Below, piece by piece: positions 40,474 to 46,855 of a DNA stretch of 64,000 bases. Numbering within the stretch: position 1 is the stretch's first letter; every line of letters starts with the position of its first letter. Under the pieces are notes generated by a model, which had not been told where the DNA came from, searched no databases, and was given only the letters and a program-made list of their open reading frames with translations. Made by a program: the position numbers and the translations under genes. Source of the stretch: Arcobacter sp. EP1 (lineage in GTDB: Bacteria; Campylobacterota; Campylobacteria; Campylobacterales; Arcobacteraceae); the NCBI GenBank assembly GCA_001655195.1, contig LPNY01000132.1, forward strand, positions 48,933-112,932, written 5' to 3'.

Positions 40474-40502
40474 GAGCCAAATAGAAAATTCTATTTAGGC
40501 TC
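40474..40502 (-). terminator. Hairpin over the stop of the M14 gene
   Basis: An 11-bp stem with a one-base bulge (40474-40484 with 40491-40502) that includes the end of the minus-strand M14 gene. There is no clear T-run after it, so termination is possible but not certain. Confidence 0.5.
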
Positions 40503-43076
40503 ATACTTTAAAATAATTGGTTCAGAGTAATTAGGTACATCGTCATAAGTGAAAATTGCAAAGTACTTAGGTATATCTTTTGCCCCAAAGTCATCAAACG
40601 TATAGCTATCCATTCCTGCAAATATTTTTTGACCATCTATGTGTGATAGTGGTGCACGATATGCATTTTTGATAACTTTTATACCCTTAAGAGCTTTATC
40701 CTTTGGGTTATTCCAAACAAGTTTTATTTTCCCATTCTCACGTACAAGTTTTTCGTCACTTACCTGTTCAACGGGGAATCGTCTTTTGGGAATATGTTCA
40801 ATAATTAGCTTAGGAGCTAAGTCTTGGTTATTGACTTCCCATGAAATTGTTTTATTTTTAAGGGATGCTTTCGACGAAGTTGGTTTTAAAACAAAAGCAA
40901 CATCACTTTTATCTTTGAACTTTTTATTAAGTTCAATTTCTGAGAACGTATCAAACATGAAATATTGTGTTTGGTTGTTTTGAAGTTCATTTGCACTCAC
41001 ATCGTAACCAATATTTTGAATAACTTCTCTATTGGAGATGCCCTCATAGTCTTTATCAATGTTTTCATCAACAAACTCTAAATGGAAACGAATATCATCT
41101 TTTAAATAGACTTTTGTTGAATTTAACTCAAAATAGGCTTTCGTAATAATCGTATCATCATAAGGAGGAAGTGATGATAGATTGAATTCAAAGGTCGAAT
41201 AAACCTTTGAACCACTTTTATCAAATCCAGAAGTAAGTTCATGTTTTTTAATTTCATCTTTTGATACTGTATAAACTTCTTTTGGATACAACGTGGTAAT
41301 GGTTGGTTCTAATTGATAAGTAATCTCTACTCGTGGTCGATAGGGTAATCCAAAACCAAACTTACCATATCCAATATCCCATTGCATCATTTGTCTATCA
41401 CGACCAATTCGAAGCTCTTTAGGACCTTCTACTCGTAATACTACTTGATCATTTTTAATTTGAGAAGATAGAATATCACACTCCATCCCTGAGAGTTCCC
41501 ATGTTCTCCAAATACCTTGAGTAAGTTGATGTGACTCTGTAGCTCTACCAACATAAGAGATAATATCCATTGAATCAACATCATCAAAGTTCGTCATATC
41601 TCCCATTGTCTCTTGGTTAACAATTCCCACATTCCATTCACCATATTTTTCAATTGTAGTTGATACTCGATTGATTGGATAAAGATTAATTGAGGCAGAT
41701 TTAATAATAGCATTAATAGGCATTGATTTTAAACTAATGGTTACAATAGCATAAGAGACACCTTTATTTGTATCAACTCCTACAAACAGGGAATTAACAC
41801 CAAAATGCTTTTCATTGTTAGCAAGTTTCTCTGCTACATATCCAGTTTTTGAAGCCAAAGAGTAATAAGTTCGTGAAAACTCGTCAAATTCAGGATTAGT
41901 TCGTACCTTTACTTGTGGAAAGTAGGGTGATTTTGTACCTGTTTTTTTATTGACTGCTCGTATGTTGTAAAAATAGTCTTTATTAGAACTAAGATTAATA
42001 TCACTAAACTCCAAACTTTGTGTTCGTGTTATTAAATTTGATGGTAGACAAAAGTTTTTATCTTTATTACTTCTGTAAATTTCAAAAAATATATCCTCAT
42101 TAAGTGCGTATTCCCACTTTAAATCAACATGATGAGAGCCAATTTCTGATACTTCAAAGGAATCAACTCTTTTTACAGCAGAATCTTTGGAGTAGTTATC
42201 CACCTCTTTAAGAGCGGCTAACAGAGCAGGGATATGCTCTCGTAAGTGTTCATTCATATCATCCATATAGTCAGATATATTTCGAGTTCCTACTTCAACA
42301 ACTGTTGATATAATTCCTTTTGAGTAGTAGAACTCTCGCCCACTACCTGAAATTAATTTTGCAGGTGGTTTTCCTTGATGGATTCCATACTCTCGTCCTG
42401 AAATTTTACGAATCTCTTCTGCCATATTCGCACATAAAGTATTCATATCCGTTGTATCAATGGTATCTTCGTGTCTAAAATCGTGTGCAGGAAAGAAAAC
42501 ATTCCCTTGAGAGTGATAATCTAAGGCAATAGTAATATTATTGTGTGCTTCAACAAAATTTTTTAGGGCTCTTGTTTCTGGTTCACTAAAGGGTTCAGGT
42601 CCACCATAAACATTTGAAGAGGTATTAGTACTATTAATAAACCCAATAGGAAAGTTACGGTTTAAATCAACTCCATAACTTCCATCTGCATTTACACGTC
42701 TGTTTTTTCGCCAAAAAGAGAAGTGGTTTCGTGAGTACTCGTATCCATCAGGATTTGCACATGGTACCATATATATAGTAGCATTTTCTAAGTAATGCTG
42801 TAGTGTTAAGTCTTGCTCTAGGTTTTCTAAAATATACTTAGCAAACTCAATTCCTAATTCATGTCCTACCCATTCTCTAGCGTGAATGGTACCTGTAAAG
42901 AACAGGGCAGGTTTTTTATCAGCTTCTTTGATATCTTTTGAGATTGTAATTAAGTTAATCTCTCGTTTTTCCCATGTCTGACCAATAGATTCAAGTTTGA
43001 AATAGTGTGGATACTTTTTCTCATACTCCTTGAATATATCAGTAGACTCACCATATGATCTATAAAGCTGTTTCAA
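40491..43076 (-). CDS. M14 zinc carboxypeptidase with Fn3 and beta-sandwich domains
   Basis: An 861-residue protein. Residues 1-305 are the M14 carboxypeptidase fold: zinc ligands H65 and E68 in 'TGTIHAREWVGHE', third ligand H188 in 'IALDYHSQGN', 'VDLNRNFPIGF' for substrate binding, and the catalytic Glu (E261) in 'STVVEVGTRN'. After it come an Fn3-like domain (about 310-395), two DNRLRE-like beta-sandwich regions (about 400-750) and a final Fn3-like region. Such appended domains usually occur in secreted enzymes, yet I see no signal peptide: the protein starts 'MKQLYRSYGESTDIFKEYEK'. It would trim amino acids from the C-terminus of peptides or side-chain tags. It is the last gene of the four-gene operon, 3 bases after the ATP-grasp/HhH gene. 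Confidence 0.88.
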   Translation of the reverse strand: MKQLYRSYGESTDIFKEYEKKYPHYFKLESIGQTWEKREINLITISKDIKEADKKPALFFTGTIHAREWVGHELGIEFAKYILENLEQDLTLQHYLENATIYMVPCANPDGYEYSRNHFSFWRKNRRVNADGSYGVDLNRNFPIGFINSTNTSSNVYGGPEPFSEPETRALKNFVEAHNNITIALDYHSQGNVFFPAHDFRHEDTIDTTDMNTLCANMAEEIRKISGREYGIHQGKPPAKLISGSGREFYYSKGIISTVVEVGTRNISDYMDDMNEHLREHIPALLAALKEVDNYSKDSAVKRVDSFEVSEIGSHHVDLKWEYALNEDIFFEIYRSNKDKNFCLPSNLITRTQSLEFSDINLSSNKDYFYNIRAVNKKTGTKSPYFPQVKVRTNPEFDEFSRTYYSLASKTGYVAEKLANNEKHFGVNSLFVGVDTNKGVSYAIVTISLKSMPINAIIKSASINLYPINRVSTTIEKYGEWNVGIVNQETMGDMTNFDDVDSMDIISYVGRATESHQLTQGIWRTWELSGMECDILSSQIKNDQVVLRVEGPKELRIGRDRQMMQWDIGYGKFGFGLPYRPRVEITYQLEPTITTLYPKEVYTVSKDEIKKHELTSGFDKSGSKVYSTFEFNLSSLPPYDDTIITKAYFELNSTKVYLKDDIRFHLEFVDENIDKDYEGISNREVIQNIGYDVSANELQNNQTQYFMFDTFSEIELNKKFKDKSDVAFVLKPTSSKASLKNKTISWEVNNQDLAPKLIIEHIPKRRFPVEQVSDEKLVRENGKIKLVWNNPKDKALKGIKVIKNAYRAPLSHIDGQKIFAGMDSYTFDDFGAKDIPKYFAIFTYDDVPNYSEPIILKYEPK

Positions 43077-43079
43077 TAA

Positions 43080-44594
43080 CTATTCTCCAATTTTAAATCT
43101 AGATTTAAGCTCTGAAAATTTATTTTTTCCAATTCCTTCAATATCTTTTAGTTGATTAATTGAAGTGAATTCTCCTAATTTTTCTTTGGCATCTAGAATA
43201 ATTTTTGAAAGTTTAGCACCAATTCCTTTGATTTTCTTTAAAGATTTAGCGTCACATTCATTTATATCATAACGCATATCTTCTAAGTCATCATTCCATG
43301 TTGCAATCATTGTCTCATCAATAGATTCTAAATCTAAAAGGTCTGATGAGTCAGTAATAATATTATCTTCTAAATGTTCATGAATTTCAATAGCTAAGTC
43401 TTCTTCCATTCCATGAAGTGTCATGATATCAGTCAATGAAGCATTGTTTAAATTGATTTTAGTTACATCAATTTTAGATTTTTTCTCTTTTTTTAGTAAC
43501 TCTTTTTTAATTGGTAACTCTTTAGGAGCAATTGAATCAGGAACATCACTTGGGAAACTCTCTTCCGTCTTTTCCATATCAAATGAATCTGTTTTATCGT
43601 TAATAAACCATGTTCCATCACATGATGGTTTATATTTACTAAAGGCAATATGACGCATTGTTCGAAGCAGAGATGAGTCAATTTTTCCTAACTCTTCCCA
43701 TGAGAATAGTGGAATATGTGGTTTAGGGAACTTTCCATTTGAGAAATCCCACATTAAGTATTGACAAATCCAATCTCGAATATAAGGGAATGCTGCAAAA
43801 GCAGTTGCACACTCTAATATATATGCTTTATCATCTTTTGCATCAATAGCAATATCACACGCCCAGTACTCAGCTTTTGCTGCTTTTGAAGCTTCTACTG
43901 CTAATTCTAATGCATTCATTGGTACATTTTCATATGACATTGAACCACCCTGAGAAGTGTTTGTAATCCACTCACCTTCACCAGAGAATCGCCAGAAAGC
44001 ACAAATAGGTTTATGTCCAATTAACATAACACGTAAGTCACCAGAGTATTTTAAATCAATTGCATCTTGTGTATAAATAGGGTTGTATTGTTTCTCTTCT
44101 AGTAATTCAAAAGCCTCTTCAAAGTTATCTGCTTTATGTACAAAGTAACCACCATAGTTTGATGCTCCGTAACTTCGTTTAATAATTTGAGGATATGTCG
44201 CTTTTTTCTTTAAATATTTATAACCCTTTTCTTTGTCGTAAAAGATTTTTGTTTTAGGGTCTGCAATACTATGTTTTTCACAAAATAGTGTAACATTCTC
44301 TTTTGATTTGTTTGGAAATTGTGTCTCTAATGATGGTACAAATCGTACATTTGGTAACTCTCTTGAGATCTCAACAAAGGTATCATAAGCAGTTGCAGGA
44401 ATATTTCCAATTAATACTTCAATTTTCTTTTTCTTAACTTCTTTAATAAATCTTTTTTTATCATTTTTCCAGTGGTAAGTTACAGTCTCTATCTTATCTG
44501 GCCATCCTTTAAAATTTGAATGGTCAAAAAAACGTAATACGTAATCTAAATATAAAAATCCTAACTTTGGTAACTTGTTCTTCTTTTTGCTCAT
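43080..44594 (-). CDS. ATP-grasp ligase fused to tandem helix-hairpin-helix domains
   Basis: A 504-residue fusion. Residues 85-290 are a RimK-like ATP-grasp ligase core: 'PQIIKRSYGASNYGGYFVH' (ATP-binding Lys and Gly loop), 'YSGDLRVMLIG', 'ITNTSQGGSM', 'ACDIAIDAKDDKAYILECAT'. The usual metal motif ExN is changed to E261-C-A263. Residues 379-503 are two ComEA-like helix-hairpin-helix units: a degenerate first ('INLNNASLTDIMTLHGMEED') and a canonical second ('CDAKSLKKIKGIGAKL', 'INQLKDIEGIGKNKF'), folds that bind DNA without sequence preference. A charged linker lies between (about 340-378). It resembles the second ATP-grasp protein 14 bases upstream. I know no described protein with this combination. 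Confidence 0.88.
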   Translation of the reverse strand: MSKKKNKLPKLGFLYLDYVLRFFDHSNFKGWPDKIETVTYHWKNDKKRFIKEVKKKKIEVLIGNIPATAYDTFVEISRELPNVRFVPSLETQFPNKSKENVTLFCEKHSIADPKTKIFYDKEKGYKYLKKKATYPQIIKRSYGASNYGGYFVHKADNFEEAFELLEEKQYNPIYTQDAIDLKYSGDLRVMLIGHKPICAFWRFSGEGEWITNTSQGGSMSYENVPMNALELAVEASKAAKAEYWACDIAIDAKDDKAYILECATAFAAFPYIRDWICQYLMWDFSNGKFPKPHIPLFSWEELGKIDSSLLRTMRHIAFSKYKPSCDGTWFINDKTDSFDMEKTEESFPSDVPDSIAPKELPIKKELLKKEKKSKIDVTKINLNNASLTDIMTLHGMEEDLAIEIHEHLEDNIITDSSDLLDLESIDETMIATWNDDLEDMRYDINECDAKSLKKIKGIGAKLSKIILDAKEKLGEFTSINQLKDIEGIGKNKFSELKSRFKIGE

Positions 44595-44608
44595 CTTCTT
44601 CCCTTTTA

Positions 44609-45550
44609 TTATTTTTTTCTTCGTTCTTCTTTTCGTCGTTCACTTTTTTGTTTTTTTGTTTTTCTATCAATTAAATCAACAATTAACTCAATTTTTTTGT
44701 CGTTAAAGTTTAATCCCATTTTCTCTTGTTCTGGTGTTGCAAACGCTGGAATACCGTTAACTTCTAATACAACATACTCTTCTTTTTTTCTATCATAAAT
44801 AATATCAACTCCCGCAATATCAAGGCCCGTTACTTTAGCCGCTTTTAGTGCCAATTCGATTACAGTATCTTCTGGTTCTCGAATAAATACACTTCCACCG
44901 CTTGTAACATTTGTTCGCCAATCATTACTGCTTGCTTTTCTTCCATAACATCCAACATATTGTCCATCTACGATGTCCACACGATAGTCTGTATTATCAT
45001 AATCAATAAATTTTTCAACATAGAAGTATCGTAAATCCATTTGATTTAAAAATGGCATTAACATATCAAGAGTCTCTTTGTTTTCAATTTTTGTTAGACC
45101 AACTCCACCCCAACCATCAGTCGGCTTATAAACCATTTTTGACCACTTTTCCATGATCGATTGCAAGTGGTGAGAATCGTCCCTGTGACAAAGTTTATAA
45201 TCAGCTGTTTGGATTTTATGATGTCGTAGTAAAAATGCTGTTTGAAACTTATCCTCTGTTAATTCAAAGGCTTCATAAGAGTTAATCATTGGAACAACAT
45301 GATTCAGCGCTTTATACAAATACATTTGATACTGAGTCTGTTCCCCTGCATTATAAGATAAGAAGAGATCCAGTTTATCCAGTTTAATTCCATTATAAAG
45401 AATATGACCATTTTTAGCGATTGCTTGACGTAAATTGATACCAGTAATAGATTCAATTCCACGTTCTTTTAGTTTAGTAACAATTTTTTGTTCAATCTTA
45501 TCACCGCCACCATTTTGATATAACCACATACCAACTTTTCGTTTACTCAT
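44609..45550 (-). CDS. RimK-like ATP-grasp ligase with basic tail
   Basis: A 313-residue cytoplasmic ligase of the RimK/glutathione-synthase-like ATP-grasp group. 'NSYEAFELTEDKFQTAFLLR' precedes the grasp domain; 'MVYKPTDGWGGVGL' (K142) and 'YVEKFIDYDNTDYRVDIV' bind ATP, 'WRTNVTSGGSVF' and the intact metal motif 'YVVLEVNGIPAF' (E263, N265) complete the site. The enzyme should join a carboxylate to an amine with ATP use, typically adding amino acids to peptides or proteins. The last 20 residues are almost all Lys, Arg and Glu ('KKQKSERRKEERRKK'), a likely contact for nucleic acid or an acidic partner. It lies 20 bases after the M20 gene and 14 before the HhH-fused sister. Confidence 0.9.
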   Translation of the reverse strand: MSKRKVGMWLYQNGGGDKIEQKIVTKLKERGIESITGINLRQAIAKNGHILYNGIKLDKLDLFLSYNAGEQTQYQMYLYKALNHVVPMINSYEAFELTEDKFQTAFLLRHHKIQTADYKLCHRDDSHHLQSIMEKWSKMVYKPTDGWGGVGLTKIENKETLDMLMPFLNQMDLRYFYVEKFIDYDNTDYRVDIVDGQYVGCYGRKASSNDWRTNVTSGGSVFIREPEDTVIELALKAAKVTGLDIAGVDIIYDRKKEEYVVLEVNGIPAFATPEQEKMGLNFNDKKIELIVDLIDRKTKKQKSERRKEERRKK

Positions 45551-45570
45551 TATCTCCCCTTATTCTATAT

Positions 45571-46671
45571 TTATTTTTGAAAATGTTTTAAAATTGTTGT
45601 CATCATATCAATACGTTGTTCAAAAGAGCTTTTTAGAGCTCTTTCATGTACTGTATGATCTCCATCACCAAATGGTCCAAATCCATCTAATGTTGTAGTC
45701 CCTTGACTCGCTACTATATTTGCATCACTTACACCACCTCTACGTTCATTAGGAATTTTTTCACCAATGAGTGATTCAAAAAGTTTAATCAATTTGAACT
45801 GCTTATCATTCTCTTCCATGACTCCTCGTTGAATTATTCCATCAGCATGAGCCGTTGTTCCTTCAACATAGGAGTGTTTTGTAATACGATCAACCCCTTG
45901 CATAACACGAAGCTGTTCACTCTTTTTATCAAATCGAAACTCCATCTTCATTTCACAATGAGGTGAGACAGTATTGATACCAATACCACCCTCTATTTGC
46001 CCAATATTTACAATAGTTCCCTCATCCAAGTTGATTAAGTTTGAATACTCAATAAATTTATGTGCCGCTTCTAAATTGGCATTGATTCCTTTGGTGTAAG
46101 AAGTTCCTGCATGACTAGCTTTCCCATCAATTTTGATGATATACCGACCTACACCTTTTCTGGCGGTCACTAATTCTAAGTTCTCACCTGCTGCTTCAAA
46201 AACAAAACAGTAATCGTAATCTTTTGCAAGTTTTGAACTAACGGCAGATGAATCATCACTTCCCGTCTCTTCGTCACTTACTAAAAGAAAATCTATATTT
46301 GTAATGCTATTATTTGTTTCATATAAATTACGCAAAGCTTCTAAGGCAACTATATTTCCACCTTTCATGTCACAAACACCTGGGCCATAAACCCAAGTCT
46401 CATCTTGTTTGAAAGTTTCAAAGTAACCTTGTGGAAAAACAGTGTCATTATGACCTAATAATAAAATATTAGGTAACCCCTCTTTCCTGGGTGTTTTAAA
46501 AAGAAGATGATCTCCTATGAATTCACGCTTAAAAACTTTTGTTGTAAAACCTAATTCTTCTAACCAAGTTGTCATTACCTGACCAACTTTATCAACTCCT
46601 GCTTTATTAGCGGTAAAAGAGTTGATATTCACTATCTTTTCTAAATCTTTTAAATACTGCAAAAAGGTCAT
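45571..46671 (-). CDS. M20 carboxypeptidase (CPG2-like)
   Basis: A 366-residue cytoplasmic M20 metallopeptidase of the glutamate carboxypeptidase type: 'ILLLGHNDTVFPQG' (first His, Asp), 'YGPGVCDMKGGNIVAL' (bridging Asp), 'LLVSDEETGSDDSS' (catalytic Glu and ligand), 'RRGGVSDANIVAS' and 'FGDGDHTVHERALKSSFEQR' (last His). CPG2 relatives remove C-terminal Glu from folate-like and peptide substrates, and some act on gamma-glutamyl tails. It is the first gene of the operon M20 - ATP-grasp - ATP-grasp/HhH - M14, with its own promoter at 46690-46710. The pairing of removal and addition enzymes suggests control of a peptide tag or a scavenging cycle. Confidence 0.9.
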   Translation of the reverse strand: MTFLQYLKDLEKIVNINSFTANKAGVDKVGQVMTTWLEELGFTTKVFKREFIGDHLLFKTPRKEGLPNILLLGHNDTVFPQGYFETFKQDETWVYGPGVCDMKGGNIVALEALRNLYETNNSITNIDFLLVSDEETGSDDSSAVSSKLAKDYDYCFVFEAAGENLELVTARKGVGRYIIKIDGKASHAGTSYTKGINANLEAAHKFIEYSNLINLDEGTIVNIGQIEGGIGINTVSPHCEMKMEFRFDKKSEQLRVMQGVDRITKHSYVEGTTAHADGIIQRGVMEENDKQFKLIKLFESLIGEKIPNERRGGVSDANIVASQGTTTLDGFGPFGDGDHTVHERALKSSFEQRIDMMTTILKHFQK

Positions 46672-46689: not shown

Positions 46690-46710
46690 ATTATATCAGT
46701 GAATAGTCAC
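46690..46710 (-). promoter_or_regulatory. -10 element and palindrome upstream of the ligase/peptidase operon
   Basis: On the minus strand TATAAT occupies 46695-46690, about 19 bases before the ATG at 46671. Directly upstream lies GTGAATAGTCAC (46699-46710), with arms GTGA and TCAC around four bases. This is a possible CRP/FNR-family-like operator adjoining the -10 and would suit repression. The ribosome site is weak (AGG next to the ATG). Confidence 0.45.
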
Positions 46711-46820
46711 ATAAAAATAGCAATTTATAATTTTGTAGTTTATTATACTCTATATGATATTATTTTTTCGAGGGAAAGTGACTAAAAAGTGTCCATTTTG
46801 AGATTTTTATGAATAATTAT

Positions 46821-46855
46821 GAAGCCAAAAGAGGGAAGACCCTCTTTTAAGCTTC
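46821..46855 (-). terminator. Intrinsic terminator after argG
   Basis: A 9-bp stem (46827-46835 with 46840-46848, AAAAGAGGG core) with an AAGA loop, extended by an outer 5-bp stem (46821-46825 with 46851-46855). It follows the argG stop by 20 bases. Confidence 0.85.

Follow-up and report, generated by a model that had tools for sequence, protein, structure and literature searches.

A conserved set of two RimK-like ATP-grasp proteins and two carboxypeptidases, possibly a cytosolic cycle at carboxyl ends, in Arcobacter sp. EP1 and other bacteria

Among bacteria, the main known case of amino acids being added reversibly to C-termini is that of RimK and RimB, a ligase and an eraser that share one operon (PMC11957791). 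The rlo operon of Pseudomonas aeruginosa comprises the retropepsin RloA, the inactive transglutaminase RloB, and the ATP-grasp protein RloC (PMC12239564). Here, we describe a different set of four genes, found in a stretch of 64,000 nucleotides from Arcobacter sp. EP1 (contig LPNY01000132.1; hereafter, the window). It encodes an M20 carboxypeptidase, two RimK-like ATP-grasp proteins, GRASP1 and GRASP2, the second with a C-terminal helix-hairpin-helix (HhH) tail, and an M14 carboxypeptidase. A sequence-only reading of the window had placed four minus-strand genes at 40491-46671, and all open reading frames (ORFs) were located there, separated by the gaps of 20, 14, and 3 bases that it gave. Its family calls were likewise upheld (Peptidase_M20, 5e-19; RimK, 2e-21 for GRASP1; RimK, 5e-15, and HHH_3, 2e-20, for GRASP2; Peptidase_M14, 2e-59). 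The gene set is apparently undescribed so far, as no description was found in the literature searched, although the amidoligase operon survey of Iyer et al. 2009 may mention it.

The four genes are a real conserved functional unit. A scan of species genomes for GRASP2 returned 80 loci from 138 candidates, nearly all in Campylobacterota (Arcobacteraceae, Sulfurospirillum arcachonense, and Sulfurimonas, Hydrogenimonas, Nitratifractor, and Nitratiruptor types); beyond this phylum, the scan recovered Desulfuromusa, a Desulfuromonadales bacterium, and Thiomicrorhabdus heinhorstiae. Counted with the window and a 2.1-Mb replicon of Photobacterium, these loci include 66 at which all four genes are present, on a single strand at 56 and with M20 on the opposite strand, adjoining GRASP1, at 10. 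Co-occurrence in other Campylobacterota and beyond, which the sequence-only reading had named as a check, is thus borne out by 66 complete loci in several phyla. The Photobacterium copy (strain sp. DA100; locus L139, 6729-13109) is a full set outside the Campylobacterota with a divergent M20.

Among 298 Campylobacterota genomes, GRASP2 was found in 32 (one copy, in genome G037, is decayed), GRASP1 in 31, and M14 in 32, while M20 was tracked by locus context only, outside this census. Thirty of the 34 genomes holding any of the three genes hold GRASP1, GRASP2, and M14 jointly, the exceptions being G218, G037, G105, and G256. For GRASP1 and M14, the naive hypergeometric probability of this co-occurrence, uncorrected for relatedness, is 1e-37. 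The matches fall in 16 of 59 genera, implying that the set has repeatedly been lost or transferred. Pairwise distances of the four proteins correlate (r of 0.51 to 0.83 over 55 loci, against a shuffled maximum of 0.20), with a contribution from host relatedness. Where carrier records name an organism, it mostly comes from a marine, vent, or saline setting. Only 1 of 321 other Gammaproteobacteria carries the set, namely the Thiomicrorhabdus at the center of that search, and none of 129 viral candidates encodes a relative; phage RimK-like proteins are only about 25 to 30% identical to GRASP1. An anti-phage defense role was considered and set aside, with none of the four proteins matching PADLOC models.

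Some genomes hold the set in pieces. In G009 and G129, M20, GRASP1, and M14 are clustered, with GRASP2, whose tail is of another type, at a distance of about 0.84 and 0.76 Mb, respectively; in G009, the trio adjoins rplS-trmD-rimM-rpsP and GRASP2 stands between efp and dnaE. In G249, M14 is on a separate contig from the other three. Since the split genomes keep all genes, these are tied by function and not by position alone. Further loci show partial, duplicated, or decayed sets. In several Sulfurimonas-like genomes, a lone GRASP2 directly follows efp, in some cases just before dnaE (L116, 9500-10918; L113 and L114, 8001-9422; L119); the copy at the efp site of G037 (L119) is decayed by four stops, and that genome has neither GRASP1 nor M14. 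In G256, only M14 is left between argG and a carbonic anhydrase gene (L135, 7720-12236), while its congeners hold the set. Two operons contain a pair of GRASP1 paralogues (L076, 6576-8480; L047, 4806-7985); the L076 pair represents two clades, sharing about 75% and 57% identity with the GRASP1 of the window, which possibly differ in amino-acid specificity. Frame breaks or insertions occur in M20, GRASP1, and M14 of L098 (3219-11931) and in M14 of L055 (9975-12560), reflecting decay or assembly error.

GRASP1 is, judged by its residues, a protein with a complete RimK active site. K142, D249, E263, and N265 are kept together with the stretch Y-G-R...W-R/K-T-N-x-T-x-G-G, the key sites being conserved in 67 to 68 of 68 members, and the E-x-N motif is intact as L-E-V/I-N in all 68. 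In Pseudomonas RimK, the Asn of this motif touches the terminal glutamate (PMC10092738). The protein exceeds the cutoff of PF08443 (RimK; 76.7 bits versus 21), and its top NCBIfam match is MptN (2e-41), at 142 bits versus a cutoff of 350; it does not reach the curated RimK equivalog (56.5 bits versus 331). It also matches LysX models, and its nearest solved structures are RimK and LysX.

For the M20 protein, the best structural match is the carboxypeptidase CPG2 (1cg2, 2.7e-28). In an alignment of 68 sequences, the zinc and catalytic residues (H74, D101, E134/E135, E159, and H339) are essentially invariant, as are R246 and R282, the equivalents of the CPG2 pocket arginines Arg288 and Arg324. 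The protein scores 185.5 bits against the NCBIfam glutamate carboxypeptidase model PRK06133, not reaching its cutoff of 349, and matches a LysK hydrolase model weakly (3.6e-9).

The M14 protein meets the signature of the A/B subfamily, with the HxxE...H zinc site, Arg127, Asn144/Arg145, and Glu270 all invariant (H65, E68, R126, N139, R140, H188, and E261 in its own numbering). Its nearest structures are CPA4 in the PDB and CPA4 and CPO by Foldseek, where human CPO ranks sixth (TM score of 0.75 on the target); the active-site loops of the model have low confidence. When aligned to CPA4 and CPA1, Arg247 falls on the I of the CPA4 segment SGSSIDW, at specificity position 255 of CPA, and this position is R in 65 of 66 members and K in the other. 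Arg255 sets the acidic C-terminal specificity of CPO, and an Arg255 paralogue cut only Glu-Glu of three substrates (PMC9925722). By this equivalence, M14 is predicted to remove acidic C-terminal residues. The catalytic domain is followed by about 560 residues of beta domains, including a DNRLRE match (NF033679, 36.4 bits versus a cutoff of 34). An in-frame TAG, the stop codon of GRASP2, lies two codons upstream of the TTG start, and the peptidase domain begins at the start of the protein. Because the frame is closed upstream and the protein opens directly with its peptidase domain, M14 has no signal peptide, and the system looks cytosolic.

GRASP2 is the more unusual of the two ATP-grasp proteins. 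PF08443 matches it at 56.1 bits versus a cutoff of 21, and matches all 35 members scanned; the curated RimK equivalog is not reached (16.7 bits versus 331). Its predicted model is closest to LysX, ArgX, and RimK by Foldseek, with the tail helices modeled confidently, and identity within the family is 56 to 82%. The ATP-binding lysine and the glycine loop are invariant, and from these GRASP2 probably still binds nucleotide. In 76 of 76 members, the Asn of E-x-N is replaced by Ala, inside an invariant E-C-A-T-A-F. Given this replacement, GRASP2 may be a pseudo-ligase partner or else a ligase with unusual chemistry. The sequence-only reading had counted two RimK-like ligases; that fits GRASP1 with its full active site, whereas the case for GRASP2 as an ordinary ligase is weakened by the lost Asn. 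The E-x-N motif is kept by GRASP1 and by distant homologues of GRASP2 in Desulfobacterota (L127-L134; about 260 residues, 31 to 35% identity). These RimK-like proteins, the nearest GRASP2 outgroup seen, have no partners visible within about 1.5 kb and were rejected as members of the system.

The HhH tail is the least conserved part of GRASP2. Arcobacteraceae have two HhH units, the Sulfurimonas type has one degenerate unit without the GIG hairpin, and the Nitratiruptor type has a different tail. The Pfam models for HhH fit about half of the members (HHH_3, 18 of 35; HHH_5, 19 of 35). This partial occurrence and the loss of the GIG hairpin indicate that DNA binding is not a trait of GRASP2 in general, and the nucleic-acid-associated target proposed in the sequence-only reading is not supported. 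At locus L049 (12769-14135), a complete operon is followed by a second, divergent GRASP1 and then by a 145-residue protein consisting of the HhH tail only, without an ATP-grasp domain; this arrangement raises the possibility that the tail is a separable module with a partner role.

The features of the locus are collected in Table 1. Upstream of M20, a promoter specific to the operon had been proposed at 46690-46710. This proposal lacks statistical support, as 38 promoter-like sites were found versus 31.3 +/- 5.6 expected, a count not distinguishable from chance; the top-ranking minus-strand candidate upstream ends at 46742. The hairpin downstream of argG was missed by the terminator scan; together with the 203-base gap between argG and M20, it suggests that argG is not part of the operon. 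The argG and carbonic anhydrase genes that neighbor the set reflect Arcobacteraceae synteny and lie outside it. For M20, an AGGA overlaps the annotated ATG and sits about 8 bases before a TTG; this spacing, and homologue alignments that start at residues 3 to 6, make the TTG the more likely start. At 43074-43082, M14 is in the frame of GRASP2, with only TAG TTA in between before the TTG start. Since the corresponding gaps in other genomes are 2 to 4 bases, the junction is best read as coupling and not as a read-through fusion.

Table 1. Features of the four-gene locus, in window positions
Feature	Position	Strand	Remark
M20 carboxypeptidase, CPG2-like	45571..46671	-	Likely start TTG at 46662
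GRASP1, RimK/MptN-like ATP-grasp ligase, full active site (K142, D249, E263, N265)	44609..45550	-	
GRASP2, divergent RimK-like ATP-grasp protein with C-terminal HhH tail	43080..44594	-	
GRASP2 E261-C262-A263, E-x-N metal/substrate motif turned E-C-A	43806..43814	-	
GRASP2 double HhH tail, residues 377-500	43095..43466	-	HHH_3 in two stretches
M14 carboxypeptidase, CPA/B-like catalytic domain and C-terminal beta domains; TTG start	40491..43076	-	
M14 Arg247, matching the specificity residue 255 of CPA	42336..42338	-	
DNRLRE-like domain of M14, residues 596-759	40800..41291	-	NF033679
Hairpin AAAAGAGGG-TCTT-CCCTCTTTT, argG/M20 intergenic, likely argG terminator	46827..46848	-	Read by eye

Taken together, we tentatively favor, at somewhat less than even confidence, a cytosolic cycle in which amino acids are attached to a carboxyl end and taken off again, like RimK/RimB but with different parts. 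In such a cycle, GRASP1 would be the ATP-consuming ligase that attaches an amino acid, with glutamate as the most likely one, to the C-terminal carboxylate of an acceptor peptide or protein. GRASP2 would assist by holding, priming, or selecting this acceptor, or else carry out a second ligation of an unusual kind. M14, with its Arg at position 255, would trim acidic residues from the C-terminus, and the CPG2-like M20 would take off the remaining or released glutamyl residue. The conservation of the unit, the states of its active sites, and its likely location in the cytosol come directly from the data. Glutamate as the added amino acid and the acidic specificity are what we infer from the protein families, while the proposals for the acceptor, the role of GRASP2, and the physiological purpose are purely conjectural. 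The general idea of writing and erasing, already put forward in the sequence-only reading, gains independent support: M14 has the Arg linked to acidic specificity, M20 is of the CPG2 type, and GRASP1 retains an intact site of the glutamate-ligase type. The nearest relatives of GRASP1, namely RimK, MptN, and LysX, are ligases that either attach Glu or work on a Glu at the C-terminus. GRASP1, GRASP2, and M14 are moreover kept when split by about 0.8 Mb, and the set was kept after transfer to Gammaproteobacteria and Desulfuromonadales-type bacteria. A more specific version, which we regard as rather unlikely, is reversible acidic tagging of protein C-termini by an active ligase, the pseudo-ligase adaptor GRASP2, and two dedicated erasers, an independently assembled bacterial counterpart of tubulin glutamylation and deglutamylation.

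Several observations weigh against such a cycle. GRASP1 stays below every equivalog cutoff, its donor specificity being read only from family membership, and CPA Tyr248 is not conserved in M14. The retention of M14 alone in G256 hints that this enzyme may have another role, and DNRLRE and other beta domains are commoner in secreted proteins. Finally, no acceptor was identified: the C-termini of S6 and EF-P do not track the operon in Arcobacteraceae. On these tail comparisons, neither protein gained support as a target. Among the 15 operon-positive and 15 other genomes compared, S6 tails show no association with the operon within Arcobacteraceae, where positive and negative members alike end in ...AAKKAN or similar. 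EF-P, examined because efp adjoins GRASP2 in some Sulfurimonas-like genomes, also has C-termini that do not differ between genomes with and without the operon, and the efp-GRASP2 adjacency was seen only in the Sulfurimonas-like group.

Instead of a peptide or protein tail, the product could be a small acidic peptide or acyl-amino acid that serves as a compatible solute, a nitrogen or glutamate store, or a signal, in the style of N-acetylaspartylglutamate (NAAG), beta-citrylglutamate, or N-acetylglutaminylglutamine amide (NAGGN), built stepwise by the two ligases and recycled by the two carboxypeptidases. We consider this somewhat unlikely. The matched numbers of ligases and carboxypeptidases, the M14 without a signal peptide, and the mostly marine, vent, or saline habitats of the named carriers fit it, and NAAG is made by mammalian RimK-like enzymes. 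However, no acyltransferase, amidotransferase, or transporter accompanies the set, an 860-residue multidomain M14 seems heavy for a dipeptide, and GRASP2 is set apart by its HhH tail and its changed active site. It is improbable that the genes edit the glutamate tail of a folate-type or pterin-like cofactor, with the ligases lengthening it and M20 and the acid-specific M14 shortening it. The top GRASP1 model, MptN, is a tetrahydromethanopterin:alpha-L-glutamate ligase and the best structure for M20, CPG2, is a folate hydrolase, but the GRASP1 score is far from the MptN cutoff (142 versus 350), the nearest cofactor systems are archaeal, and no conserved cofactor gene lies near the operon.

Biosynthesis on a carrier in the manner of LysW, LysX, and LysK, in which GRASP1 would load an amino acid on the carrier and M20 release the product, is very improbable, despite the LysX/ArgX-like structure of GRASP2, the LysX matches of GRASP1, and the weak LysK match of M20 (3.6e-9). 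M20 is far nearer to CPG2, M14 is left unexplained, and neither a LysW-like small ORF nor reductase, kinase, or aminotransferase genes occur in or adjoining the operon, where conserved neighbors represent lineage synteny only. Even though clusters for ribosomal peptide natural products contain ATP-grasp ligases and peptidases, a graspetide-like or antibiotic pathway is extremely improbable: no conserved precursor ORF lies within 500 bases of either end of the set at 66 loci, where the shared small ORFs prove to be fragments of rplS, argG, and the carbonic anhydrase gene, and the set is absent from the viral contigs screened. Nor do the locus neighborhoods hold a conserved acyltransferase, amidotransferase, transporter, leader peptidase, or cofactor gene beside the set. 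The lack of a precursor, carrier, acyltransferase, or transporter disfavors the LysW-type and graspetide readings. That four unrelated housekeeping genes of peptide metabolism became neighbors by chance is scarcely credible; each family is common by itself, but the genes co-occur, keep their order across 16 genera, are retained even when split, and have been transferred as a set, all of which contradicts it. The two main candidates remaining are a protein or peptide tail and a small acidic metabolite. Persistence across genera, survival of splits, and movement between phyla point strongly to a dedicated biochemical cycle for this four-protein set, and since culturable marine bacteria carry it, proteomics or metabolomics could reveal the target.

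Compared to described systems, the set combines familiar activities in another way. Tubulin glutamylation likewise opposes an ATP-grasp-fold ligase (TTLL) to an M14 carboxypeptidase (CCP/AGBL), and acidic specificity with Arg at position 255 is known also from CPO. Here, however, the system is bacterial, M14 is CPA/B-like with beta domains and may not be a CCP, and an M20 and a second ATP-grasp protein are added. The LysX/ArgX-LysW-LysK pathways share a RimK-like ligase and an M20 hydrolase with the present set, which differs in having an extra M14 and GRASP2 and no LysW or pathway enzymes. NAAG and beta-citrylglutamate synthases (RimKL) resemble it in pairing a RimK-like ligase with a glutamate carboxypeptidase, but these are animal systems with M28 peptidases, and the present set has no acyl donor enzyme. 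In the rlo operon, an unassigned ATP-grasp protein (RloC) is likewise found with peptidases acting on glutamate-rich sequences (PMC12239564), although the peptidases are of another class, the erasers are secreted, and a membrane protein is included. RimABK of Pseudomonas, also cytosolic, has a RimK-class ATP-grasp ligase in one operon with a peptidase by which the attached residues are taken off again. It differs in that its eraser RimB is a retropepsin-like aspartic protease instead of an M14 or M20 enzyme, in having one ligase instead of two, and in targeting S6, and a RimA-like gene is not part of the present set. Because its erasers belong to other families, the four-gene set is not a Rim system, and RimK/RimB is its nearest working analogue.

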